Positions 19,174 through 35,218 of a stretch of 35,218 nt of DNA are shown here, piece by piece. The DNA lies in the NCBI GenBank assembly GCA_035573895.1, contig DATLZR010000080.1:1-35218 (forward strand), read 5' to 3'. Origin of the DNA: Blastocatellia bacterium. Its GTDB lineage: Bacteria > Acidobacteriota > Blastocatellia > HR10. The notes below the pieces were generated by a model, which saw nothing but the letters and a program-made list of their open reading frames with translations, had not been told where the DNA came from and did no database searches. The first letter of the stretch is position 1. Each line of letters starts with the position of its first letter. The position numbers and the translations under genes are program-made.

Positions 19174-21411
19174 TCAGAGCGAGACTTCCACAGGTTCTCC
19201 GGTGAAGACGACCGTGCGCACCTCCTTTTGCGAGGCGATCCGGAGATGAAATCGCCGGGGCGACGGCGGCAGCATCCGCGTGCCCTCGACGAGCCGAAGC
19301 CCGAGTCGTCGCGCGCGATCGTTCCATACGGCTTCGATCTTCATCTGCTCCCCCCGGCGGTAATCGAGCGTCACGCCATCGTCTTCGTAGAGGACGAATC
19401 GCCCGTTCGCTCCCGGATAGATCGTCAGCGTGATCGGCTCCTCGCTCGGTTGCATCGTGTACTGTTTCACCGGCCCCAGGGGAAGAATCGTTCCTGCCCG
19501 CACATAGAGCGGCATCGTCGCCAGATCCACCGTGCGTTCTACTTCTCGTCCCCCGTCCACGCGCTCTTCCGTCCAGAAGTCGTACCACAGGTCTGACGGC
19601 AGATAGAGCCGCCGCACGGTCGCTCCCTTCTCCGTCACCGGCGCGACCAGAATGTCGCGCCCCCACAGGTACTGATCGCCGCGCCCGACGGCCGCGGAAT
19701 CGCGAGGATAATGCAGCCACAAAGCCCGGATGATCGGCAGTCCGGTCTCACATCCCTCGCGCACGACGCTGTAGAGATACGGCAGGAGCCGATAGCGCCA
19801 TTCCAGATACGTGCGGCAAATCGGCTCGACGTGTGGATTGCGCAGTTCGCTCGGATCGGGATTGGCAGCATCGCTATAGGAGCGAATCTCATCCGGTCCC
19901 AACTGTCCCGTATTCCATCCCCAGGGCAGGCGCAGATGCCAGGTCCGCCCATGCGAGCGAAAGAGCGGACAGAAGGCGCTGAATTGAAACCATCGCACGT
20001 AGAGTTCTCCCGTCAGCTCCTTCGTCGGAACGAATCCTCCCGTATCCGTCCCCCAGTAAGGGATGCCGCTCAAACCGGTGTTGACGGCCACCGGAACATG
20101 CGTGCGCAGCGTCTCCCAGGTCGAGTAGACATCGCCCGACCAGAGAAACGCAGCATACCGCTGCATGCCGGCGTGCCCGTTGCGATGCAGGGCGTATGGA
20201 CGCTCGTTGGGACGATCTATCTGCGGGGCTTCCCAGTACAAGCGATTGCGCACAAGGCGCGACGCGCGATCGAGCGGATCGCCTTCATCCACCCACCACC
20301 CGTCCACGCCCATGGCGAACACGCGCCGGTGCAGATTCCAGTAGCATCCCGCTTCTTCCTCGTCGAATCGCGCCAGCTCGCACCCGTCCCGTGCCGTTCC
20401 CCGCAACGCGCGCGAGAGGATGACGACATGCAAGACGATGCGAAAGTTCATCTCGTGTAGTTCGCGGATCATGCGTTCGGGATCGGGGAACACCGACCGA
20501 TTGAACGAGAAGGATCCGTTGGCCGTGTTCCAGCCCGACGGCGTGAATCCAGTTCCCAGGTAAATGAGCACATCGCAGGGCAACTTCTTCTCCCGGAAGG
20601 TCCGGGCGACGGAGAGGACTTCGTCTCGGCCGGCGAGCGTGCGGTGCGATTGTTGATACCCCAGGGCCCAAATCGGGGGCATTTCGGGCAGTCCCGTGAG
20701 ACGCGCGTATTCGGCCATGATCTCCCTCGGCTCCGGCGTCCCGATGACGAAGACATCGAGCGGAAGCGCCTCCTCCGGACGACGCGGCTCGAACCGGCCT
20801 TCGACCCCCGTGAGATCGAAGATCCCCTCCGGCTGATGCACGAACATCGCCCATCCCGATGTCCCGATGAGCCAGGGAATCGGCACGCGCCCGCCGTGCG
20901 TGCGCAAGCGATACCCTCCCTGGCCGCTGCGCATGAGATCGCGCGATCCCCGACGGTCGAATTGCGGTCCTCCCTGTCCGAGACCGAGAACAGGCCCATC
21001 CCCCGGGAGAAAACTCATCGCGCCGGTGCGCGGATCAAGCTGGAGTCGCTGGACGAGACGTCCCTCGCGCGTCTCGATGTGAATGGTCAGCGGCTCCGGA
21101 GAGAACCAGACGACGAGATCTCCCGACGGCACGCGCTGCGAGCTACGAAGAGATCGCAGTCGCACAGCCGGTGCTCCCCACGTCTCTCGAACGAGCGAAC
21201 CGTCCTGCGGGATCGGCGCCGGACGACCGGCTTCAAGCGGCACCACGCTGAGGCGCACCGCGCGAGCGCTCACGGGAGAAACCACGATCTCAACGGGTCG
21301 CCCCAGAATCCGAAGCTCCTCTTGAGCGCGACTCCCGCGAGCGCCGAAAAACACCCCGGCCGCCGTCGCGCTCATCCCCTTCAACACCTCGCGTCGAGTG
21401 ACCTCCACCAT
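19174..21411 (-). CDS. Exported glycoside hydrolase family 31 enzyme
   Basis: A 745-residue GH31-type retaining glycosidase (alpha-glucosidase, alpha-xylosidase and related activities). It has a Tat-like signal (T-R-R-E-V-L-K-G-M, hydrophobic stretch to G-S-R-A-Q near 30), an N-terminal beta-sandwich (about 35-235), the barrel and C-terminal beta domains. The predicted nucleophile is Asp375 in G-W-W-V-D-E-G-D-P, where most relatives have Glu before the Pro. The predicted acid/base is Asp427 in L-W-S-G-D-V. Substrate cannot be fixed from sequence. ATG 21411 is supported by GGAG six bases upstream; the frame is open farther but overlaps the preceding gene. It is the last gene of a three-gene exported carbohydrate cassette, 56 bp after the DUF5695-like gene. 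Confidence 0.9.
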   Translation of the reverse strand: MVEVTRREVLKGMSATAAGVFFGARGSRAQEELRILGRPVEIVVSPVSARAVRLSVVPLEAGRPAPIPQDGSLVRETWGAPAVRLRSLRSSQRVPSGDLVVWFSPEPLTIHIETREGRLVQRLQLDPRTGAMSFLPGDGPVLGLGQGGPQFDRRGSRDLMRSGQGGYRLRTHGGRVPIPWLIGTSGWAMFVHQPEGIFDLTGVEGRFEPRRPEEALPLDVFVIGTPEPREIMAEYARLTGLPEMPPIWALGYQQSHRTLAGRDEVLSVARTFREKKLPCDVLIYLGTGFTPSGWNTANGSFSFNRSVFPDPERMIRELHEMNFRIVLHVVILSRALRGTARDGCELARFDEEEAGCYWNLHRRVFAMGVDGWWVDEGDPLDRASRLVRNRLYWEAPQIDRPNERPYALHRNGHAGMQRYAAFLWSGDVYSTWETLRTHVPVAVNTGLSGIPYWGTDTGGFVPTKELTGELYVRWFQFSAFCPLFRSHGRTWHLRLPWGWNTGQLGPDEIRSYSDAANPDPSELRNPHVEPICRTYLEWRYRLLPYLYSVVREGCETGLPIIRALWLHYPRDSAAVGRGDQYLWGRDILVAPVTEKGATVRRLYLPSDLWYDFWTEERVDGGREVERTVDLATMPLYVRAGTILPLGPVKQYTMQPSEEPITLTIYPGANGRFVLYEDDGVTLDYRRGEQMKIEAVWNDRARRLGLRLVEGTRMLPPSPRRFHLRIASQKEVRTVVFTGEPVEVSL

Positions 21412-21467
21412 ATTCCACTCCTGGCTCGGACACGTCTTCCGGAACACGCGTGAAGGAACCCGTTTGC

Positions 21468-24320
21468 TCAGTTCCTCCGGCCTCCCTCGCGCTCTCGAAC
21501 AAGCTCGACGACCGTCGCGTCTCCGGAGATGTTCAATGTGATCTCGGACTCCTCTCCAAGTCGAACAACTCCCACGCGTCGTCCATCCTGAACGATGGCA
21601 TAAGCCATGCGCTCCGTCTCCTCGGGAGACTTCTCTCCCGGCGCAGCGTCTCGGAGCGAGACCTTGAGCAGCGTCACGTGCGCATCGGCCGTTCGATTCT
21701 CGATCACCATCCGAATGCGCCCGACGTCCCTTGCGACGAAAATCGGCCGTTCGGCGGCCAGTCCGTCCCGGTCCAGTTCGATCGCCATTCGGAAATCGGC
21801 AAGCACGATGTGGAATCGTTTCCGCAGCCCATCGCGCGGGATGACCGAGAACCCGTCTTCCGACGCGGTGAGAGCGCCGCCGTAGGCGAACCAATCGAAG
21901 AGCGGATCGCGCGTCAGGATCGTGGCCGCTGCCCGAAGGGCGCCGCCGAAGCCGAGATCAATCTCGCCATCGTAATGCCAGGCTCCCCGCGGCATATCCT
22001 TCCGAATCCACGCGCGCCCGAACTTGGCCGTCATGAACTGCCATCCCGCGGCTCCGTCATTCTCTTTGCCGGGGAACCAGAATCCGTAATTCGTCTCCGG
22101 TCGCCCCGTGTTCATCAGCGACCAGGAACTCAGAATTGAGGCATAGCCGAGTTGAAGCCAGTCGGCGGGATCGGCTGCAAAATGGATGGCGTAGTCGAGG
22201 ATCGCCCATCCTCCCATCGCGGCCATGTAGCTCATCGCGCCCACATCGGAGGAGCCGGTGAAATCCGCTCCGAGCAGGTAATAGGCCGCCTCCAACCATC
22301 CGCGAACGGCCAGATTCGCCCGCAACTGCCGCTCCATGAATGCCCGCGCATCTTCCTTTCGCACGACCGGATGCGAGTACCACTTCCGCAGTCGCTTGTC
22401 GAACCAGAGATTCTGGTCCGGTTTCATCTCGTGCGTGGCTCCGTACTTGGCCACGGCGTAGGTCGTCTCGAATGCCGTTCGGTCGAACGGATATTCCGAG
22501 CGATAGGGATAAGGGTCGTCGTAGATGAAGTATTTGACTTTCTTCTCCCACTCGCTGCGAAGCCACGCCGCTTTCTCCGGAAATCCCTCTCGCTCCAGCG
22601 CAGCGATGAGCGATAAGATCACCACTTCGTTGTAGCAGCCGATCTTGTACGTCTCGTACTCCTCCGGCAAGATCTCGTAGGGATAGAGGAAGTAGGCCCG
22701 CGCCGTCTGGTAAGCGCGTTCGAGATACCCCTGCGCATCGAGATAGCGTACGAGGTGCGGATATTTCCTGGCGATCTCGTACATGTGGAAGTAGAGCATG
22801 ATGACGTGAGGATAATCGAACGAGCGCCAGATGGGCATCTTGTCGAGATGGCGATTCCGAATCCCGGCGCGCGCTCTTGGATCGGGATCGCGATTCACCT
22901 TCCAGTTGGGCACGCCGTAAATGCCGTAGGGATACGGATGCTCCCGATCCGTGCGTTGCAACCCTCCCCACACGAAGTGCTCGATATAGTACTCGACCGA
23001 CGCGATCTCCTGCGGATCGGGAAAGTGCACGTTTTTCGCCGCGACGAACGGAGCTTTGCCGAGGGCGGGATCATCGGAGGCCAGCACATATCCCCACCAA
23101 TAGTCGAATCCATCGGTGTCATCCGGGCTTCGCAAGACGTTGTTCTTCATGTCGTAGACCGAGTAGAGCCCGTTGTACCACTTGGACGGATCTCGATGTT
23201 GCTGCCGCTGGGTGATGAACCGGCTTCGCTTTTTGATCAGAGTCTCAAGCGGCTCCGTCACGAAGAACTCCAGATATGTTCGTCGCCCACCGTCGTGTCG
23301 AATCGTCAGCACATTCTCGCCGAGCCGCGAGAAGGCGATGCGATAGAGGTGATGATGGGGATGCCGCTCGCCGAGATACGTGATGCGCGTGTGCTCCGGG
23401 AACTCCGGCTCCAGCGCTTCGATGCGGGCCTTCGTGTGAAGGGCGAGTGTGGCCGTCAGGTCTTCGGGGACGGTCATCCCGGGGACGACGCGAATATCGA
23501 AGAGTCCCTCCCGATAGAGAATCTCGCGCATCTCCGCATACGACCGCGCCCACTGAAATCGAACCCCATAGCGAATTTTGCTTCCCGAAGCGCCCGCCGG
23601 CTGTAGCTCTAAAAACGTATGCGGCTGCCGCCAGCTTCCCCGCGTCTCGCGTCCACCGGAGAGCCCCGAATGGATATAGGCGCGATAATTCCGCCGCCCC
23701 TCGGACGTGTAGTACTCGAACTTCGTTCCCGGATGGACGGTGATGACGAGATAGGGAGGCTCTCCATTGGGTCGCACAAAATACAGGAACGATCCATGCC
23801 CGCTGATGAAATGATGCTTGGTCCAGCTTCGCTCGAAAATCGTTCGCGTCTCTCCCGCGGGGAAGCGCCAGGGGATCGGCAATGCGAGGTCTCCGATCTG
23901 CACGGGGAAGTTCATCGTCGTCTCGATCTCGATCGTCCAGTCGAGAACCGCACCCTCGATTTTGAACTGCTGGAGCATCTTGAGCGGTGATCCGGGATCG
24001 AAATCCGTGTAAGTGAGCGCGCCTTTGTCCGGCTCCGCTTGGAGCGTTCGAGTTCCGGTGTAAATCGGCAGCCAATCGCCTCCTTCGACCCGGTAGGTCA
24101 CGACCGGTTCCCCCAGACGACCCTCGCCGCTCAACAGATCGGCCTGAACGGGATCATGAGGATTCCACAACCGGGTGATTCCCCGACGATCATAGACGAG
24201 CGTGAAATTCTCGGTGCGAATTGTCCCCGAAAGGTTTTGTCCCGATACCGGTCCGAATCGAAAGGGAAAAGCTGCGACCAGGCTCAGGATGATGAGCGAT
24301 CGTGCTGCGTTCGGTTTCAT
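21468..24320 (-). CDS. Secreted DUF5695-like (six-hairpin-type) carbohydrate-active protein
   Basis: A 950-residue protein with an N-terminal Sec-type signal (K-P-N-A-A-R-S, hydrophobic run, ending near V-S-G-Q at residues 25-28). The first ~350 residues look like beta-sandwich repeats. From about 370 the chain is rich in aromatic/acidic helix motifs such as K-W-Y-N-G-L-Y, D-T-D-G-F-D-Y-W-W-G-Y, C-Y-N-E-V and N-Y-G-F-W-F-P-G-K-E-N-D-G, recalling alpha-toroid (six-hairpin) glycosidases. I recall DUF5695 as the closest family; this is from memory. Polysaccharide hydrolysis or lyase activity is a guess. I choose ATG 24320 (AAAGGG eight bases upstream) over the GTG at 24329. It lies between the GH31 gene and the TIM-barrel gene on one strand. 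Confidence 0.7.
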   Translation of the reverse strand: MKPNAARSLIILSLVAAFPFRFGPVSGQNLSGTIRTENFTLVYDRRGITRLWNPHDPVQADLLSGEGRLGEPVVTYRVEGGDWLPIYTGTRTLQAEPDKGALTYTDFDPGSPLKMLQQFKIEGAVLDWTIEIETTMNFPVQIGDLALPIPWRFPAGETRTIFERSWTKHHFISGHGSFLYFVRPNGEPPYLVITVHPGTKFEYYTSEGRRNYRAYIHSGLSGGRETRGSWRQPHTFLELQPAGASGSKIRYGVRFQWARSYAEMREILYREGLFDIRVVPGMTVPEDLTATLALHTKARIEALEPEFPEHTRITYLGERHPHHHLYRIAFSRLGENVLTIRHDGGRRTYLEFFVTEPLETLIKKRSRFITQRQQHRDPSKWYNGLYSVYDMKNNVLRSPDDTDGFDYWWGYVLASDDPALGKAPFVAAKNVHFPDPQEIASVEYYIEHFVWGGLQRTDREHPYPYGIYGVPNWKVNRDPDPRARAGIRNRHLDKMPIWRSFDYPHVIMLYFHMYEIARKYPHLVRYLDAQGYLERAYQTARAYFLYPYEILPEEYETYKIGCYNEVVILSLIAALEREGFPEKAAWLRSEWEKKVKYFIYDDPYPYRSEYPFDRTAFETTYAVAKYGATHEMKPDQNLWFDKRLRKWYSHPVVRKEDARAFMERQLRANLAVRGWLEAAYYLLGADFTGSSDVGAMSYMAAMGGWAILDYAIHFAADPADWLQLGYASILSSWSLMNTGRPETNYGFWFPGKENDGAAGWQFMTAKFGRAWIRKDMPRGAWHYDGEIDLGFGGALRAAATILTRDPLFDWFAYGGALTASEDGFSVIPRDGLRKRFHIVLADFRMAIELDRDGLAAERPIFVARDVGRIRMVIENRTADAHVTLLKVSLRDAAPGEKSPEETERMAYAIVQDGRRVGVVRLGEESEITLNISGDATVVELVREREGGRRN

Positions 24321-24476
24321 CCGAAGCACCCTTTCAAAGAGCGGCGCCGGCGTTCCTGCCTGCGGCCGGGGGCAGACTCGGAAGCTGGCGCCACTTTAGG
24401 GATTTTCAATTGCCCGTACTCTGGGAGCGCCCACATCTTGCGGACAACAGGCAGGCGAGAAGCGTGCGCTCTCCGG

Positions 24477-24490
24477 GTAAACTCATTTAC
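24477..24490 (-). other. Small AT-rich hairpin after the TIM-barrel gene
   Basis: GTAAA/TTTAC with a 4-nt loop begins six bases after the TIM-barrel stop codon, in the 175-bp gap before the DUF5695-like gene. There is no T-tract in the direction of transcription, so this is probably not a terminator; it may delimit the mRNA. Confidence 0.25.
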
Positions 24491-24495
24491 ATGCC

Positions 24496-26295
24496 CTAGA
24501 TTCCCGCGCGCTGGCGGGCGCGACGGATCACCGCTTCCATCTGATCACGATAGGTCGTGAAGGTATCGTCCACGACGCTGAGCGTGGGTATCTGCTCATC
24601 CCGAAGCAAAAGCGTCGCCGGATTCCAGCGACCGAAGCCGGCTTCGTGCACGCCGGTGCTGCCCCGTCCCGGAGCCGGATGGCTGAGGTGCTGGAAAAAG
24701 CGCGCGTATTTCTGCACGGCTGCCGGATAGGCGAACTGCGAGAACACATGATAAAGCGGGATGAACTCCAGCAGCGCGTCGTAATGCATCTCGCCGCAAG
24801 CCAGCACGTGCGGATATTTCGCCCGCAGGTCGAGGACGAGCCGTCGAGTCCCTTCGTGCATATCGGCCTTGGGATTGTTCACCCATCCGCCGACGATGTC
24901 GAGGAAGTAGGCATCCACGCCGTACCGTTCGATGACCTCCGAGATGCGTTCGAACAAATGCTCGCGCCAGGAGGCGACGCCGAGATTCATATACGAGAGC
25001 CAGCCGTCCTGATGGCGATCGTTGTCCCAATCCACCCAGTTGAGATCGAAGCGATCGCCGTCAATCTTCGCCGTGGCCGCATCGGCCAGACGGGCGAAGA
25101 CGGGCTGCTGGCGATTGGCCGCATTCGCTCCGAACATCGGCATCATGCGGAAGCCCAGCCGCTGGGCTTCTCGAATGAGCCGACGAAAGCCGTCCTCGCC
25201 GCCCATGCGCGGAGCGGGCCGATAGAGGGGATAGTCCCAGTAGTATCGGCCATCCCAGGCTGAGAGGAAGACGAGCACGCGATCAGCCGGGATGCGCTCG
25301 GCCATCCAGCGAAGGATCTCCCCCATGCGGGCGTAGTCGTTGAAGATGTAGCCCGTGTAGTGCATGCCGTGCAGCGTCACCACCAGCGCGATCCGCCGCA
25401 GCCATTCGGGAACGTCCTCGCGCGTCTCCCACGGTCGCAGGCGATAAACCCGTTCCAGGTGTTCATAGTGCCCGCGCGCGATCGCCTCCACCGTCGGCGC
25501 TCGCCCAATGCGCCAGCGAGGAAACGTCACCGTCGTCGGGCGCGTCCAGCCTTCCAGCTCGCATACGGCTTCCAGGCGATAGCCTCTCTCGCCCGGCTGG
25601 AAGTAGTAGCGTTTAGTCCGCACGCGATCATCGAGCGACGAGATGAAGAAGAAATCCCGCTCTCCCGCCTGCACGATGGCCAGCGGTGTTTCCATGCCGC
25701 GCGCCGATCCCGGACCGAACAGGTCTCCGCCGGAGAAGGGATAGCCCAGAAGCACTTCGTCCTCTCGCGGATCGAAAAAGCCCTGCAATGCACTGGAGAT
25801 GCGACCGCGCGGCACGCCCCGGATGATCGTCGTGGCGGCTTTCAGGGGACGGTCCATGCGCACCGTCACCTCCCACTCGATGAACGCGCCACGTTTCTCC
25901 AGGCGCGCCCGTAACTGTCCCGGAGCCTTCTCCTGTCCTCCCGCCCACACGAACCGATCGCACCGAAGTTCCAGCGCCTCTCCGCGCGCGTCCACCGTCA
26001 TTCGCTCTCGGTCCAGACTGTAGACGTTCTCGTGGGTGAAGATGAGGAATCCGAATTGATACCCCTCGAATTCGACCGACGGCTCCGGGAAATCGAAACT
26101 GAACTTCATGTACGACCGCCCGCGCGGCGGGACATGAACGCCGGTCGTCGAAGTGAACGGATGAATGGTCCCGTTGGGCACTTGAGGAAGAATGCGAGGG
26201 GGACTGGAGCGCGAGGAAGCCGGAGTAATGATCGCTCCGGCTCCCACAAGCCCCAGACCCTGAAGCAAGGCGCGACGAGAGAGGCGCTGGTTCAT
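24496..26295 (-). CDS. Exported two-domain TIM-barrel glycosidase-like protein, family unassigned
   Basis: A 599-residue protein with a clear Tat signal (S-R-R-A-L-L-Q-G-L, hydrophobic stretch to about 28). An N-terminal beta-sandwich (about 35-265) precedes a barrel (about 290-599). The barrel shows features of retaining alpha-glycosidases: V-D-A-Y-F-L-D-I-V-G-G-W at about 458-469, with a strand-end Asp as candidate nucleophile, and A-C-G-E-M-H-Y-D near 498-505, with a Glu as candidate acid/base. Motifs such as L-S-A-W-D-G-R-Y-Y-W-D-Y and N-W-V-D-W-D-N-D line the likely pocket. I cannot place it in a numbered GH family; GH36/GH-D-like or DUF6259-like barrels are possible relatives. GGAGGG precedes ATG. 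First gene of the three-gene cassette, 40 bp after the DUF885 gene, so coupled transcription is likely. Confidence 0.65.
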   Translation of the reverse strand: MNQRLSRRALLQGLGLVGAGAIITPASSRSSPPRILPQVPNGTIHPFTSTTGVHVPPRGRSYMKFSFDFPEPSVEFEGYQFGFLIFTHENVYSLDRERMTVDARGEALELRCDRFVWAGGQEKAPGQLRARLEKRGAFIEWEVTVRMDRPLKAATTIIRGVPRGRISSALQGFFDPREDEVLLGYPFSGGDLFGPGSARGMETPLAIVQAGERDFFFISSLDDRVRTKRYYFQPGERGYRLEAVCELEGWTRPTTVTFPRWRIGRAPTVEAIARGHYEHLERVYRLRPWETREDVPEWLRRIALVVTLHGMHYTGYIFNDYARMGEILRWMAERIPADRVLVFLSAWDGRYYWDYPLYRPAPRMGGEDGFRRLIREAQRLGFRMMPMFGANAANRQQPVFARLADAATAKIDGDRFDLNWVDWDNDRHQDGWLSYMNLGVASWREHLFERISEVIERYGVDAYFLDIVGGWVNNPKADMHEGTRRLVLDLRAKYPHVLACGEMHYDALLEFIPLYHVFSQFAYPAAVQKYARFFQHLSHPAPGRGSTGVHEAGFGRWNPATLLLRDEQIPTLSVVDDTFTTYRDQMEAVIRRARQRAGI

Positions 26296-26335
26296 CGTCG
26301 TTTCCCTCCATCAGCAGAAATCGCCGCTCACATCA

Positions 26336-28294
<1,959 letters not shown>

Positions 28295-28586: not shown

Positions 28587-30095
28587 CTACGTTTTGATTG
28601 CTCGCCAGCGACGGAACAGCTCATAAACGGGGAATCCCGTAAGCACAATGACCAGCCCCGGCCAGGTGGTTGCCGGTCGGTAGATGAAGAGGACGATCAC
28701 AATCGTCGCGGCTCCCGCAATGTAAAGAAGCGGCACAAAGGGATAGCCCCAGACGCGATAGGGGCGTTCCAGATCGGGTCGCCGGGAGCGCAAGCGAAAG
28801 ATGCCGACGATCGTGGCGATGTAAAAAAGAAGCGCCGCCGAGATGACATAATCGAGGAGATTGCTGTAGAGGTTTCCGTACCGGCCGGTCGCTTCATTGT
28901 AGGTTCGGGGGAGGACCAGTGCCGCTGCCCACAGACCTTGCAGCAGAAGCGCCCAGCCGGGCACGCGCGCTGAGTTCAGGTGACCCGCGAAGTTAAAGAA
29001 GAGGCCGTCCCGGGCCATGGCATAGTAGGCGCGGGCACCGGCCAGTATCAACCCGTTGATCGTCCCGAACGTCGAAATCATGATGGCTCCCGCCATGAGC
29101 ATCGTCCCCGTGCCGGGGAAAATCCGTTCGAGCATCGCCGTCGCCACTCGATCCGAAGGAGCCTGTTGAATCCCCGACAGCGGCAGGGTCACGAGATACG
29201 CGGTATTGGCCAGCAGATAAAGGGTGATGACGATGCCCGTGCCGAGGGCCATGGACAGGGGAATCGTGCGTTTGGGATTTTTCACCTCTCCGGCGGTGAA
29301 GGTGATGTTGTGCCAAGCATCGGCGGAAAAGAGCGATCCCGTCTGTGCGACGCAGAGGGCGACCAACAGCCCAAAGAACGTCGTCGCATCCAGTCCGGGA
29401 ACAATGGCCACCTGGCCGCGCGCCGTCCAGAGGTCGCCGAAATTCATCTCCACCGCCTGCGCGTTCCAGCCCACCAGCAGCCCCAGCACGATCAGAGCGA
29501 TGAGCGCGCCGGTCTTGGCCGTGGTGAAAAGGTTCTGCACGATCTTACCGTATCTCAAGCCGCGGCTGTTGATCCACGTCAACAGTCCGATGACCGATAC
29601 CGCCACCACTTGATTGGTGGACAGCGACAGCGCATAGCCTGACGACAGATGCACCGGTCCGATCAGGTAGCGCTCCTCCGAGATCGTCGGCCACAGTACG
29701 CCGAAAAAGCGAGCGAAAGCGACCGCCACGGCGGCAATCGTGCCGGTTTGAATGACGAGAAAGAGCGTCCAGCCGTAAAGGAAGCCCCACAGCGGCGAGA
29801 ACGCCTCGCGAAGGTAAACATACTGGCCTCCGGCGCGCGGCATCATCGCGGCCAGCTCGCCGTAAGAGAGGGCTCCCGCGATCGTCAACACACCGGTGAT
29901 GACCCACGCCAGGAGCAATCCGCCGGGACTGCCGATCTGCCGGGCCATGTCCGCTGAGACAATGAAGATGCCCGATCCGATCATGATTCCCACGACAATC
30001 ATGGTGGAATCGAACAGTCCCAGCGCTCGAGTAAACTCCCCGGGCGCTTCGTGAGGAACATCCTTTGCGGTGGCCTGAAAGGGTTTCACCCTCAT
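28587..30095 (-). CDS. APC-family amino acid permease
   Basis: A 502-residue integral membrane protein of the APC superfamily, probably importing or exchanging amino acids. The N-terminal G-I-M-I-G-S-G-I-F motif (about 36-44) forms the substrate-binding unwound helix of the family. About 12 hydrophobic helices are visible, in line with LAT-type bacterial transporters. The annotated ATG at 30095 overlaps the M24 stop (ATGA). GGAGG, however, abuts that ATG, whereas the GTG two codons later (30089) has ideal 6-base spacing and may be the true start. Its place between an M24 peptidase and a DUF885 protein suggests uptake of amino acids released from peptides. The exact substrate is unknown. Confidence 0.9.
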   Translation of the reverse strand: MRVKPFQATAKDVPHEAPGEFTRALGLFDSTMIVVGIMIGSGIFIVSADMARQIGSPGGLLLAWVITGVLTIAGALSYGELAAMMPRAGGQYVYLREAFSPLWGFLYGWTLFLVIQTGTIAAVAVAFARFFGVLWPTISEERYLIGPVHLSSGYALSLSTNQVVAVSVIGLLTWINSRGLRYGKIVQNLFTTAKTGALIALIVLGLLVGWNAQAVEMNFGDLWTARGQVAIVPGLDATTFFGLLVALCVAQTGSLFSADAWHNITFTAGEVKNPKRTIPLSMALGTGIVITLYLLANTAYLVTLPLSGIQQAPSDRVATAMLERIFPGTGTMLMAGAIMISTFGTINGLILAGARAYYAMARDGLFFNFAGHLNSARVPGWALLLQGLWAAALVLPRTYNEATGRYGNLYSNLLDYVISAALLFYIATIVGIFRLRSRRPDLERPYRVWGYPFVPLLYIAGAATIVIVLFIYRPATTWPGLVIVLTGFPVYELFRRWRAIKT

Positions 30096-31774
30096 CCTCC
30101 CTTGTGAAAAATGATCTCCCAGCGGGTGAAAGGTTCCGGCGGATCACGCCTCAGGTGGGCGGTTTCATCCGTTGGCGAACGCATTTTCATCGTGGGGTGC
30201 GTGAGCGCATGGGCGATTCCCGCGGAAATGGGGCACAGACTTTCGCGTCTGCGCACCGTCGGGGAAATCCGGGCTCCGTCGGGCCGGTCACTCCGTTCAG
30301 TGGTGCCCTGTTTTCTCTGCGGCTTCAGCTCGCTTTCGGGAACCGGAGGAAAGGCCTGGAGCATCCCCCCTCGTCCGACGAGTTTCTCGATATCGTCTAA
30401 TTCCGAGGGCAAGAAATCGGTGAAATTCTCCACGCCCGTCTCCGTCACGACCACCACGTCTTCATACCGGAGGTAGAGATTCTCTTCGGGCACGCGCAAC
30501 TGCGGATCAATCGAGAAGACCTGTCCGGGTTTGAGCACATCGCGCGTATAGGTGCCCACATCATGAACGGCCATTCCCACGGGATGAGAGAAGACGCCTC
30601 CTCCCGTTTCCACCAGCCGACGGGCGGCCCGTTCGTAAATCGGCTTGGAGAACGTCGTCCGGCGAAAGACGTCCTCCATCGCCGCTCGGGCTTCACTGAG
30701 GATCGTTTGCACGGTCACGCCGGGACGAATGCGGGCGAGGACGGCGTTTCGGTACTCCAGCACGAACTGGAGCAACTCCCGCTGCCAGGGGCTGAAGCGA
30801 CCGCTCACCGGCCACATGCGGGCGACATCGCTGGTGTAATAGCCGTAGTCGGGAGCATAGTCCATCAGGACGAGATCGCCTTCCTTCAACTGATCGAGAT
30901 TGCGGTAGTAGTGGATATTCCAGATGTTGGCCGTGCCGGAGGCGACAATCGAGCGATATCCTTCCAATCGGGCTCCGTTGACGAGGAAGACGTAGCGGGC
31001 GACGGCATCGAGCTGATACTCATAGACGCCGGGTCGCGTGGCTTTCATCGCTTCGATCAAACCGAGTCCCGCCAGTTGAGACGCCCGGCGAATGAGGGCG
31101 ATCTCGCGGGGACTTTTCACGCTCCGCAGCTCATCGAGGATGGGCGAGAGGTCCCGTACTTCCACCTGAGGAAAGCGCGTGCGAAGGAGTCCGACAAAAT
31201 GCGCCTCCCGTGAAGGACGCCCGTCCCAGTAATCCAGCGCGATGCTGGATTGCGCAGCCAGGAGTTCGCCGCGACTCTGGGCAGCGCCTTCGGCCGGGGC
31301 CATCGGCGTGTAAATCACCGGAGCGGGCCGTCCGAGAAACTGGCGCATCCAGTCGGCCGTCATCGCCGATGTGCTCAACACCTCATCCACACCGGTGAGC
31401 TGTTTCACCAGTTCGGCATCCTCGGCCGAGAGGACGCGCCCTTCAGCGCTCTCCAGCCGCGGATTCCGGGGCGGCAGCACCAGCGTCACCCGACGCGTTC
31501 GTCCATCCAGGATAATGTAGGAGTGAGGCGTCTCCACCCCGCAGAGGTAATAGAACTCGTTGGTCTGACGGGGATAAATGAACCCTCCGACCTGCGGCGC
31601 TCCTTGAACAAGGGCAACGGCCCGATCCCCGATTCGATCAAAGATCTTGTTCCAGCGGGCCTTGAATTCGTCCGGCGGGAAGTGCGATTGGTAATACGGT
31701 CGGCTCTGGCCGCAAGGTCTCAGCGGCACAAGAAGGATCATCCCCAGGGTACACCACCATCGCATCCTCAGCAT
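30092..31774 (-). CDS. M24-family aminopeptidase (Xaa-Pro type) with C-terminal tail
   Basis: A 560-residue exported pita-bread peptidase of the M24B (Xaa-Pro aminopeptidase) type, expected to cleave residues before proline. The signal spans about 1-22 (M-I-L-L-V-P-L). Metal ligands can be read as Asp305, Asp316, His397 (S-H-P-V-G-M), then Asp423 in F-S-I-D-P-Q, where Glu is usual, and Glu438. The N-terminal creatinase-like domain (about 30-200) is present. Normal family length ends near residue 485; the last ~75 residues are basic, unstructured and partly encoded by a repeat-like hairpin at 30236-30251. ATG 31774 follows TTTCGGAGG seven bases upstream. Its stop overlaps the permease start, so the genes are probably translationally coupled. 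Confidence 0.9.
   Translation of the reverse strand: MLRMRWWCTLGMILLVPLRPCGQSRPYYQSHFPPDEFKARWNKIFDRIGDRAVALVQGAPQVGGFIYPRQTNEFYYLCGVETPHSYIILDGRTRRVTLVLPPRNPRLESAEGRVLSAEDAELVKQLTGVDEVLSTSAMTADWMRQFLGRPAPVIYTPMAPAEGAAQSRGELLAAQSSIALDYWDGRPSREAHFVGLLRTRFPQVEVRDLSPILDELRSVKSPREIALIRRASQLAGLGLIEAMKATRPGVYEYQLDAVARYVFLVNGARLEGYRSIVASGTANIWNIHYYRNLDQLKEGDLVLMDYAPDYGYYTSDVARMWPVSGRFSPWQRELLQFVLEYRNAVLARIRPGVTVQTILSEARAAMEDVFRRTTFSKPIYERAARRLVETGGGVFSHPVGMAVHDVGTYTRDVLKPGQVFSIDPQLRVPEENLYLRYEDVVVVTETGVENFTDFLPSELDDIEKLVGRGGMLQAFPPVPESELKPQRKQGTTERSDRPDGARISPTVRRRESLCPISAGIAHALTHPTMKMRSPTDETAHLRRDPPEPFTRWEIIFHKGG
30236..30251. repeat. Hairpin repeat inside the M24 3' end
   Basis: CAGAC/GTCTG with loop TTTCGC lies within the coding tail of the M24 gene. 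Its stem resembles the CCAGACGT/ACGTCTGG units at the left end of the window, and like them it has a TTC-containing loop. It suggests insertion or spread of hairpin units into a gene end. Confidence 0.4.
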
Positions 31775-31813
31775 GATGACGCCTCCGAAAAATGCCGCGC
31801 GGGTTCGTCCGGC

Positions 31814-31853
31814 CGGTGCACCGCCGCACGCTGAGAAGGTGGGCGGTGCACCG
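31814..31853. promoter_or_regulatory. Twin 10-bp palindromes forming a 12-bp stem
   Basis: CGGTGCACCG occurs at 31814-31823 and again at 31844-31853; each is a perfect palindrome, spaced 30 bp centre to centre. Together the arms (31814-31825 and 31842-31853) also form a 12-bp perfect stem with a 16-nt loop. It sits between the amidohydrolase and M24 genes; it could be a pair of operators or an intercistronic RNA hairpin. Confidence 0.5.
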
Positions 31854-31860
31854 AGCGCGG

Positions 31861-33516
31861 TTACTTTTTCGCGTTGGTCGTACTGTCGGCGGCGACTTTG
31901 AGCCGCTCTTGTTTTTGCTTTTCGACCATGCGGGCGACGTCGGCCAGGAGCTTTTTGGCATCGTAGACGATACCGTCTTTGATCGTCCACTTGATGCCGC
32001 CCACGCGCTCGACCTTACCGGTCTTATCGTTGAGCTTGATGGCGCCCGTCCCGTAGAGAACCTTCAGATTCTCCAGCGGATTCTGATCCACGATCACCAG
32101 ATCGGCCAGCATTCCCTCGCGCACGATGCCGAACTCCAGCGGTTTCCCCTTGGGTTCGTGAAGGGTGAGCGCCCCGTTCAGAGTCGCTGCCTGAATGACT
32201 TCCAGGGGATGAAACCCGGCCTCCTGAAGCAGCTCCATCTCCTGAATGAACCCGAACCCGTAGGTGTTGTAGATGAAGCCGGAGTCCGACCCCACCGTCA
32301 CGCGTCCACCGATCTTTTTGTAATCGTTGAGCAGCCGGAACCAGACCTGATAGAAATTCTTCCAGGCGACTTCGTCCCATGTCGTCCAGTAGTACCAGTA
32401 GGAACCGTGATTGGCCCGGTTGGCTTCATAGAAGTCCATGAGCGAGGGGAGCGTGTATTTCTCGTGCCAGTCGGCATTGCGCATGCGCATCTGGTCGCGG
32501 CTGGCCAGATAGGCGACCATCGTGGGATCGAAGGTCGTCCCCAGTTTCTTGTGTTCTTTGAGATAGTCGTTCCACTCGGGACTGCCCGGCGGATGAATCT
32601 TGTCCCAGAGCCGGGCGACCTGACCGAAGCGATCCTGTTCGTTGTAGTAGTTGTAGTCAACGGGCCAGGGCTGCACGACGTAGTCTTTGAGCAACGCTTC
32701 AAAGTGGCCGTAGAAATGGGTGACGGTTCCCAGTCCCAGGCGGGCGGCTTCCAGAGCATCCATGCGGGCGACGCCGAGTTGCGAGAGGTGAGCCGTTGAT
32801 CCCAGTCCGTGCTTTTTGGCTTCATCCAGCAGCGCCGCCATGATCTCCGGAGGATAGGCGTCGAGCTTCAACCCATCCACGCCGTTTTGCGCCGCCCAGC
32901 GCACCCACTCGCGGGCCTCTTCGGGCGTTCTCACCGGGCCGCGCCCCCAGCCGGTGCCCGGGCGCTGGTAGTTGAAGATGCGCGGAGCCACGATCTCATT
33001 GCGGGCGCTACGCTCCTTCTCTTTCACGGCGATCTCGTTGGGAGCGAGGGGAACGCCGCGCACGGTGGTGACCCCATGCGCCATCCAGAGTTTATAGGCG
33101 TACTCGGCTTCGGGGTTTTTGGGCGGTCCGCCGGCGTGAACATGCATGTCCACAAAACCCGGCAGGACGTACATCCCGGTGGCATCAATCTCATAGTCGG
33201 GGTTCTCCGGCGGGCGATTGGGCCGCAGGGGAAGACCCGGCGTGCCCGCCACCCGAATTTCCTTAATCCGGTTGTTTTCGATGACAATGTCCACGGGGCC
33301 CCGCGGCGGCGCACCGGTACCATCAATGAGGATGGCTCCGCGAATCACCAGAGTTCGGAACGGGCCGACTCCCTCATCGGATCGTCGCGGGGGAGCGGGA
33401 ATCAACTGGGCGTCCGGCTGTCGTTGCTGACTCAGTACCGGCAAGGATAGTCCACTGCTGGCAATGACGAGGAAAAGAAGCAGACCACTCACCACCGTTT
33501 TTGACTTTCGATTCAT
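31861..33516 (-). CDS. Secreted metal-dependent amidohydrolase
   Basis: A 551-residue amidohydrolase-superfamily protein with a Sec-type signal (N-terminal Arg/Lys, hydrophobic 8-26, cleavage near L-S-Q). The barrel starts with D-M-H-V-H (His125, His127). Other likely metal ligands are Lys217 in G-L-K-L-D-A, His243 in T-A-H-L, His267 and/or His271, and Asp411 in V-G-S-D-S-G. This pattern fits the imidazolonepropionase/prolidase-like branch, which often acts on Xaa-Pro dipeptides, but the substrate is not fixed. The C-terminal segment adds a Lys-rich tail. ATG 33516 follows TTTCGGAGG. It is 86 bp upstream of the M24 gene on the same strand, so a joint role in proline-containing peptide breakdown is plausible. 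Confidence 0.88.
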   Translation of the reverse strand: MNRKSKTVVSGLLLFLVIASSGLSLPVLSQQRQPDAQLIPAPPRRSDEGVGPFRTLVIRGAILIDGTGAPPRGPVDIVIENNRIKEIRVAGTPGLPLRPNRPPENPDYEIDATGMYVLPGFVDMHVHAGGPPKNPEAEYAYKLWMAHGVTTVRGVPLAPNEIAVKEKERSARNEIVAPRIFNYQRPGTGWGRGPVRTPEEAREWVRWAAQNGVDGLKLDAYPPEIMAALLDEAKKHGLGSTAHLSQLGVARMDALEAARLGLGTVTHFYGHFEALLKDYVVQPWPVDYNYYNEQDRFGQVARLWDKIHPPGSPEWNDYLKEHKKLGTTFDPTMVAYLASRDQMRMRNADWHEKYTLPSLMDFYEANRANHGSYWYYWTTWDEVAWKNFYQVWFRLLNDYKKIGGRVTVGSDSGFIYNTYGFGFIQEMELLQEAGFHPLEVIQAATLNGALTLHEPKGKPLEFGIVREGMLADLVIVDQNPLENLKVLYGTGAIKLNDKTGKVERVGGIKWTIKDGIVYDAKKLLADVARMVEKQKQERLKVAADSTTNAKK

Positions 33517-33540
33517 AAGCCTCCCTCCGAAAGCGTGGTC

Positions 33541-33561
33541 GTGCCGGCTGGAGGCCGGCAC
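33541..33561. repeat. 8-bp perfect hairpin near the amidohydrolase start
   Basis: GTGCCGGC (33541-33548) and GCCGGCAC (33554-33561) form a perfect hairpin with loop TGGAG. It is in the leader of the amidohydrolase and resembles the stem-loop style of the left-end mosaic. It may be a dispersed palindromic unit or a leader structure. Confidence 0.45.
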
Positions 33562-33807: not shown

Positions 33808-35218
33808 TTAAAATGCCAGGCGAATTCGGAACTGGACCTGACGGGGCAGCGTCATCGTCGTCGTCGTGCGACCGAAGGCCGTCGAAGTGATGCTGATCGG
33901 AACGACGCTGAACGTTCCCCCCGTCGGAACTTCAAAGATCGGATGGTTGAAGGCATTGACGAACTCGGTGCGAAATTCCATGCGCAGTTTCTCTCCCACC
34001 AACGGCAGGGCCTTGGCCACCGAGAGATCGGCGGTCACAAAGTTCGGACCGTAGAGATAGACGAAACTGCCGAACTGCCCCGGCGTGGTCGGCGGCAGGA
34101 GGAAGGCGGGATTGGCTCTGCCATCGCTCCCCACCACTTTCGGATCGAGGAAGAAGACGTCGGGCCGACCCGACGGCTTAAAAACGCCAACCATCTTCTG
34201 GAGATCGGAGGAGGTCACGCCGTTGAGGACCACGCCGGCGTCTTCCTGGTTGACCGTGTTCCGACCGCTGCTGAGTTTGAAGGGAAGGCCCGTCTGCCAG
34301 CGAACGATCCAGCCGACCACCCAGTTGCTGATCACTTTGTTGGCGACGGAACTGGTGGAGGCAAATCGCCGTCCCGGTCCGAAGGGAAGCTCATAGGTGC
34401 CGAACGCCTGGAAGACATGCCGGATGTCGAACGGCGACGGTCCCCGATCCAATCGCCGATTTCGCAGCGTTGCGAAATTGCTCGCATTGTCCACATTCTT
34501 GTTATACCGATCCGTGAGCGCATGACCCCAGGAGTAATTGAGATTGAAGGTCAATCCCCGCGAGAATCGGTGCCGCAACTCGACCTGAAGTCCGTTGTAG
34601 CTGGAGAAGGAGTTGTCGCTGAGCAGTCGCGCCGTCCCGACAAAGGGATTGAGTCGGAAAAAGTTGACCGGAAATTGTCCTGCTGAGGTGAAACCGAGAC
34701 GGGCGCAGGGTTCAAATGCGCTCCCGACGAGACGACAGAAATAGGTCGAGTTAGACGAAAGAATGTTGGCCAGTGCTCCCGCCTGTCCCGTTTGCAGCAA
34801 CGTGATGAAATTGCTGTTGCTGAATCCCTGACTCGGGGGCAGGCCGGCAAAGGCGGCTTCAAAGATGCGGAGCGGGACCTGGCCGGGAAGCCCGACATTG
34901 GCGAAGCTGTTCTGTCCGTTGGCCCGGCTGATGGCGAGATTATTCTGCGCCGCCAGGAATTCGCGGAGGAAGCCGTTTTCGTAGATATTCACCTCGTTGA
35001 TGTTGAACGTGTGCCAGAGGCGAACGCCCCGATTCCCGACATAACGAATCTCCAGCACCGTCCCCGACATCAGCTCGCGTTGCAGGCTCACCGTCCAGGA
35101 CTGAACGTAGGGCGCACGGATGTTCGGATCAATCGTCGAGATCGTCGTGTTGGTGAAGGCGAAGCTGGCCAGCGGCAGCGGAAAACTGAAGCTGGCGGGG
35201 AAAAACCGAAACGGCGGT
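33808..35218 (-). CDS. Oar-like TonB-dependent outer-membrane protein, C-terminal part
   Basis: The visible 470 residues are the C-terminal part of a large outer-membrane beta-barrel; the frame stays open to the window edge, so the 5' end is missing. The segment D-P-N-I-R-A-P-Y-V-Q-S-W followed by Q-R-E-L and Y-V-G-N-R-G is the hallmark of the Oar/CarA-type receptors that abound in Acidobacteriota. Further barrel strands follow (N-L-N-Y-S-W-G-H-A, W-V-V-G-W), and the protein ends in an aromatic residue, Q-F-R-I-R-L-A-F, as outer-membrane barrels usually do. Its ligand is unknown; uptake of peptides or oligosaccharides would fit the downstream genes, but this is inference. It is 291 bp upstream of the amidohydrolase on the same strand. 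Confidence 0.85.
   Translation of the reverse strand, partial: PPFRFFPASFSFPLPLASFAFTNTTISTIDPNIRAPYVQSWTVSLQRELMSGTVLEIRYVGNRGVRLWHTFNINEVNIYENGFLREFLAAQNNLAISRANGQNSFANVGLPGQVPLRIFEAAFAGLPPSQGFSNSNFITLLQTGQAGALANILSSNSTYFCRLVGSAFEPCARLGFTSAGQFPVNFFRLNPFVGTARLLSDNSFSSYNGLQVELRHRFSRGLTFNLNYSWGHALTDRYNKNVDNASNFATLRNRRLDRGPSPFDIRHVFQAFGTYELPFGPGRRFASTSSVANKVISNWVVGWIVRWQTGLPFKLSSGRNTVNQEDAGVVLNGVTSSDLQKMVGVFKPSGRPDVFFLDPKVVGSDGRANPAFLLPPTTPGQFGSFVYLYGPNFVTADLSVAKALPLVGEKLRMEFRTEFVNAFNHPIFEVPTGGTFSVVPISITSTAFGRTTTTMTLPRQVQFRIRLAF

Follow-up and report, generated by a model that had tools for sequence, protein, structure and literature searches.

What could three exported proteins, encoded next to each other in an acidobacterial genome, be doing together? 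They lie in a contig of a Blastocatellia bacterium (DATLZR010000080.1; the whole stretch of 35,218 nucleotides that was analysed is referred to as the window) and comprise a TIM-barrel protein, a protein of the Pfam family DUF5695 and a glycoside hydrolase of family GH31. An interpretation made from the letters alone (the sequence-only reading) had described three exported, glycan-active genes on one strand with short gaps. This description holds: all three open reading frames (ORFs) were found in the expected places, separated by 175 bp (TIM/DUF5695) and 56 bp (DUF5695/GH31), and structure prediction puts both proteins that it had left unassigned in carbohydrate-active folds (GH129/GH36-like and PL27-like, respectively), not in unrelated non-carbohydrate families. 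With a probability of roughly 0.5, we favour the view that the trio can be transferred as a module and that its exported, exo-acting enzymes trim capping sugars from glycans rich in L-arabinose, either of the rhamnogalacturonan or of the arabinogalactan/hydroxyproline-rich-glycoprotein kind; we infer both the substrates and the activities.

Scanning 84,980 species genomes with the TIM protein gave 66 loci with close relatives (1.01 Mb), from Acidobacteriota, Gemmatimonadota, Hymenobacter (Bacteroidota), the pseudomonadotal genera Nitrospirillum, Azospirillum and Caulobacter, and a few others. Relatives of the protein occur in at least six phyla, come mostly from soils according to record titles and include plasmid-borne ones in Deinococcus (37% identity) and Cnuibacter (Actinomycetota, 33%). 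Their most common partner is a gene for a GH127-type beta-L-arabinofuranosidase: 34 such genes are present in 32 of the 66 loci, where 0.7–0.8 would be expected at the frequency of PF07944 in 14 genomes picked by the analyst (51 matches over about 68 Mb). The association is seen in five phyla, in differing orders and orientations. Further partners are GH51 (15 loci), GH27 (14), AraB (12), AraD (9), aldose epimerase (8), a YtfQ-type binding protein (7), GalT (5) and GalK (4), together with ABC (ATP-binding cassette) sugar transporter genes. Neighbour counts beyond the Pfam-checked examples come from single-sequence similarity searches, and S9 peptidases were left out of the statistics, since genomes of this kind are expected to have many of them. 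The other two genes keep the same company outside the window's family. A PF07944-type (GH127) gene accompanies DUF5695 in 12 of 20 loci, mostly as the adjacent gene (expected 0.2), and the GH31 subgroup in 7 of 9 (expected 0.1), four of which have no TIM gene nearby. Repeat proteins of the FG-GAP/ASPIC-UnbV type are also found near TIM homologues in eight loci (L020, L031, L038, L042, L051, L054, L060 and L074).

The TIM protein is predicted to have a fold of the GH129/GH36/GH31 type while lying outside every sequence family in the copies of Pfam, NCBIfam and PDB that we searched. Its model (predicted local distance difference test, pLDDT, 83.5) consists of a beta-sandwich and a TIM barrel, and the best Foldseek match is 5opq, the GH129-like 3,6-anhydro-D-galactosidase DagB (E 1.1e-21, template-modelling score, TM, about 0.6), followed by GH36, GH129 and GH31 enzymes. 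Sequence searches gave neither a Pfam match above cut-off nor an NCBIfam match; GH129 was matched neither in Pfam, by the protein and 30 homologues, nor among PDB sequences. The placement rests on the fold because a family profile run against PDB sequences returned only amylases at chance level. Pfam matches to DUF6259, GHL6 and GH66 were below cut-offs and were not used for placement, and no mention of DUF6259 was found in the literature searched. The family is annotated as 'hypothetical protein' in the three annotated records consulted. Two acidic residues at strand ends of the model, D466 (predicted strand 4) and E502 (predicted strand 5), are invariant in all 30 aligned members, and we propose them as a candidate catalytic pair. 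NagBb Asp435 and DagB Asp486 are the common catalytic aspartate of their enzymes (PMC5698469), and D466 would, from its position only, be the equivalent residue. An invariant stretch, W-V-D-W-D-N-D-R (residues 420–431), follows predicted strand 3 and precedes strand 4, in a region that is modelled with low confidence; it is possibly a metal site, by analogy with the GH129 enzyme NagBb, which binds Ca2+ (PMC8106489).

The sequence-only reading had stated that only the GH31 enzyme belongs to a clear family. This is still so with respect to the TIM protein and no longer so for its neighbour, which matches Pfam PF18951 (DUF5695; E 2.2e-50) and, judged from profile and model, is a remote homologue of the PL27 L-rhamnose-alpha-1,4-D-glucuronate lyases. 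NCBIfam provided no name for it, and DUF5695 is mentioned in the literature found only in unrelated work. A profile built from 18 relatives matched 5no8, the PL27 lyase BACCELL_00875, in two stretches (E 3.8e-20). Profiles were needed because single-sequence PDB searches returned nothing usable for the TIM protein and reached only E 0.002 for DUF5695. The same structure heads the Foldseek matches of the predicted model (E 6.9e-24, TM 0.65 by target length), the next different fold following at only about 2e-7. R499 and Y503 are invariant among the relatives and align with an arginine and a tyrosine of 5no8. The PL27 fold combines a beta-sandwich with an (alpha/alpha)6 barrel (PMC8377490), in good agreement with the earlier guess of a six-hairpin-like protein.

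The third enzyme carries the GH31 domains PF01055 (4.6e-60) and PF21365 (4.7e-27); its mechanical ORF opens farther upstream, at 21894, than its likely start. D375 and D427, which we take to be the nucleophile and the acid/base, correspond in the alignment to the WWMD and WSGD motifs of 7kmp and do not vary among seven homologues. Homologues in the searched set are all uncharacterised. The twin-arginine motifs SRRALLQG (TIM) and TRREVLKG (GH31) are both kept by homologues; the Pfam TAT_signal model is matched in 7 of 30 TIM homologues. Between genera, the ratio of nonsynonymous to synonymous divergence (dN/dS) of the trio genes is 0.08–0.13, i.e. they are under purifying selection.

All three genes are linked in the window's genome and in relatives belonging to one other genus of the same acidobacteriotal family. 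One of these relatives, G001, has the order DUF885-TIM-DUF5695-GH31, with GH31 truncated; in G004 and G005 GH31 is ended by the contig boundary and a VPS10/BNR gene stands between TIM and DUF5695 (L047 7549-10320, L048 3172-5943), and in G002 the contig ends within TIM. Outside the family linked pairs were found, TIM with GH31 in L020, L021, L031 and L060, TIM with DUF5695 in L042, and GH31 with DUF5695 in G022 and G604, the latter being the one genome sampled there that has all three genes, with TIM apart. The expectation that the trio would co-occur elsewhere was thus borne out among relatives within the family and, beyond it, only for linked pairs. DUF5695 is present in just 5 of 40 TIM-bearing genomes sampled outside the family, so we rejected the idea of the trio as a widespread fixed unit. 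Three of these five are Nitrospirillum, with no recognised glycan genes beside DUF5695 in the two loci read.

Divergence from G001 is uneven. Synonymous divergence (dS) between the window and G001 is 0.25 for TIM and 0.20 for DUF5695, versus 0.85 for DUF885 and 1.5 for a core H+-pyrophosphatase on the same contig of the window. The low-divergence stretch runs from 20094, within GH31, to about 26990, within DUF885, and indicates that the genera exchanged it by transfer or recombination. G003 (L137 10793-13184) lacks about 11.9 kb of what lies between DUF885 and aldose epimerase in G001 and keeps only short pieces of TIM and of the epimerase. Because the block was transferred between genera and lost whole in G003, the data support a cassette that behaves as a unit. 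At 20094 itself the similarity to G001 ends within GH31, the G001 copy being truncated and followed by an Oar-like fragment; the contigs of G004 and G005 end at 20095, the same place, as if a repeat or rearrangement were located there.

The proposed GH51 and GH127 partners of the trio are encoded elsewhere in the same genome, where contig C179 (L136) carries the run Oar-Oar-GH51-GH127-VPS10; its VPS10/BNR-repeat gene lies beside GH51-GH127 within L136 6880-14159. In G001 two GH127 genes flank the cassette itself. The trio would then supply cap-removing enzymes to the GH51/GH127 system. The PL27-like DUF5695 protein would take terminal L-rhamnose off a uronic acid, and the GH31 enzyme would take off an alpha-linked sugar by means of D375 and D427. 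The TIM protein would cut an alpha-D-galactose-configured cap by means of D466 and E502. Alpha-D-galactose and its pentose analogue beta-L-arabinopyranose have the same configuration, and either might be the cap. Alpha- and beta-L-arabinofuranose would next be removed by GH51 and GH127. An Oar-like barrel encoded in the window may import or bind the fragments.

Several of our results weigh against this proposal. The loci counted above share ancestry, so that the counts are not independent, and only one family has the three genes linked. Confidence in the DUF5695 model is only moderate (pLDDT 67.6). The GH31 gene, being incomplete in G001, may be dispensable. Neither an AraA domain (PF02610) nor GH88/GH105 (PF07470) was found in the 97%-complete genome, hence neither isomerase-route use of L-arabinose nor the usual post-lyase step is seen; the organism may deglycosylate without using all of the sugars, or may use other routes. 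In addition, members of GH127 can also act on 3,6-anhydro-galactose (PMC5698469).

That last point leads to one of the alternatives, a galactan with 3,6-anhydro-galactose or an exopolysaccharide of microbial mats as the target. The best fold match of the TIM protein, DagB, is encoded together with three GH127 genes in a carrageenan locus, and in this locus, from Zobellia, GH127 and the GH129-like enzyme jointly free 3,6-anhydro-D-galactose (PMC5698469). The metabolic genes around TIM, however, are those of L-arabinose and galactose (AraB, AraD, GalK, GalT, GH51, GH27), the sources are, by record title, mostly soils and identity to DagB is about 11%, all of which makes such a target improbable. 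A more serious competitor, still rather unlikely in our opinion, is pectin itself. The side chains of rhamnogalacturonans I and II (RG-I/RG-II) bear rhamnose, uronic acids and arabinofuranose, no glycoprotein would be involved and the peptidase genes of the block would be unrelated neighbours. A second DUF5695 subfamily does have rhamnogalacturonan lyase, RG acetylesterase, GH28-type genes and L-rhamnose mutarotase as neighbours, yet the window contains no such pectin gene, and in the neighbourhoods searched around the window-type subfamily none was recognised either, DUF885 being found there instead.

The three genes might also lie together by coincidence and have different glycans as targets, given that the trio is linked in a single family only, that DUF5695 is so rare among the sampled TIM-bearing genomes outside it and that the Nitrospirillum copies read have no recognised glycan neighbours. 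Yet each gene neighbours GH127 independently, linked pairs exist in unrelated genomes (L020, L021, L031, L042, L060, L107 and L146), and the block was for the most part transferred together and was lost in one piece, so mere coincidence seems very improbable. Least probable of all we consider a GH31-led degradation of alpha-glucans or xyloglucan, which the sequence-only reading had listed among the substrates to test. The closest solved relatives of the GH31 enzyme are indeed the alpha-xylosidase 7kmp and the GH31 enzyme 6jr6, but specificity in GH31 varies widely, and the TIM and DUF5695 proteins are unlike glucan enzymes. With GH127 as the constant partner, accompanied by GH51, GH27, AraB and AraD, an arabinose-rich substrate is likelier.

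The same-strand block extends beyond the trio, with genes for DUF885, a permease, an M24 peptidase, an amidohydrolase and the Oar-like barrel upstream of TIM (Table 1). Scans for promoters and terminators gave nothing informative.

Table 1. Features of the window on which the analysis draws.
Feature	Position	Strand	Remarks
GH31 enzyme, 745 aa from ATG, Tat (twin-arginine) signal	19174..21411	-	likely start ATG 21411
DUF5695 (PF18951) protein, 950 aa from ATG, Sec signal	21468..24320	-	likely start ATG 24320
TIM-barrel protein, 599 aa, Tat signal	24496..26295	-	likely start ATG 26295
Low-divergence island versus G001 (genome of another genus)	20094..26990		upper end approximate (500-bp bins)
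DUF885 protein, HELIPGHH motif (peptidase-like)	26336..28294	-	ends 40 bp upstream of TIM
Amino-acid permease, possible partner	28587..30095	-	fragment only in G001
M24 aminopeptidase-P-like peptidase, possible partner	30092..31990	-	fragment only in G001
Amidohydrolase, possible partner	31861..33561	-	weakly Xaa-Pro-dipeptidase-like (58.6 bits, cut-off 500)
Oar-like outer-membrane barrel (PF25183), possible importer	33808..35217	-	N-terminal part past contig end

As the sequence-only reading had noticed, the trio has no SusC/D-like partners, none being present among the window genes scanned. Its suggestion that the Oar-like protein serves as importer is possible, and such barrels recur next to homologous sets (L099, L131, L136).

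DUF885 recurs with DUF5695 elsewhere, as do S9 peptidase genes. It adjoins DUF5695 of the window type in another family (L099; G023, with the order GH127-Oar-DUF885-DUF5695). On Sphingomonas plasmids (L142, L143) DUF885 lies two genes from GH127 in the neighbourhood of DUF5695, in the set DUF885-Ldh-GH127-DPP IV-DUF5695-TonB, of which a shorter version was also found, and in L100 an S9 gene ends a few bases ahead of DUF5695. The metabolism of proline and hydroxyproline involves some enzymes of the Ldh family, and the Ldh gene of the Sphingomonas run would fit a hydroxyproline-rich glycoprotein as substrate. Given the arrangements in G023, Sphingomonas and L100, the polymer may include a peptide, as arabinogalactan-proteins and extensins do, which we regard as a lead. 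If the substrate is a glycoprotein, DUF885, M24, the amidohydrolase and the permease would harvest the peptide. Going further, and only as a tentative proposal that we would sooner doubt than believe, the TIM family would be a new GH family for L-arabinose- or galactose-capped glycans, found across at least six phyla and with a functional tie to GH127. In the same proposal, a conserved module of GH127, DUF5695, DUF885 and an S9 prolyl peptidase would make use of both parts of plant or algal glycoproteins, their sugars and their Pro/Hyp-rich peptide.

For two protein families without an assigned function there is now a biochemical context that can be tested. The TIM family has acquired a predicted fold, a candidate catalytic pair and an association with L-arabinose genes that recurs in several phyla, and DUF5695 a kinship to PL27 with GH127 as its usual neighbour. 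To our knowledge, few enzymes uncap arabinogalactan-proteins and pectin side chains. The term undescribed system, for which the sequence-only reading saw here the best candidate in the window, is too strong given that the parts of the cassette resemble known ones; it looks like a variation on the already known breakdown of arabinose-rich pectin or arabinogalactan, with one unassigned family and a PL27 relative.

How close the variant comes to known systems differs from part to part. PL27 enzymes free L-rhamnose from gum arabic via beta-elimination at glucuronic acid (PMC8377490), and the DUF5695 protein is like BACCELL_00875 (5no8) in sequence profile and predicted fold; it shares about 15% identity with it in the fold alignment and is about 250 residues longer, and the genome, unlike the gum arabic system, is without a GH88/105 partner. 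GH129 and GH129-like enzymes share with the TIM protein an N-terminal beta-sandwich and a TIM barrel, and DagB also has GH127 genes nearby (PMC5698469), whereas identities are about 11–14%, the TIM protein has no Pfam match, and DagB is surrounded by carrageenan genes in place of the L-arabinose and galactose context. With the beta-L-arabinooligosaccharide system of Bifidobacterium longum (GH127, GH121; PMC7263609, PMC10850190), GH127 is shared and a hydroxyproline-rich glycoprotein substrate possibly so; no GH121 is seen in the window, where the other enzymes differ, peptidase genes stand beside the set and an Oar-like barrel is found where B. longum has an ABC importer. The SusC/D-type polysaccharide utilisation loci of Bacteroidota provide the last comparison: in Hymenobacter the TIM gene adjoins SusC/SusD-type genes, in several cases with GH127 as well, while in the window, which has no SusC/D, the Oar-like barrel may stand in for them.

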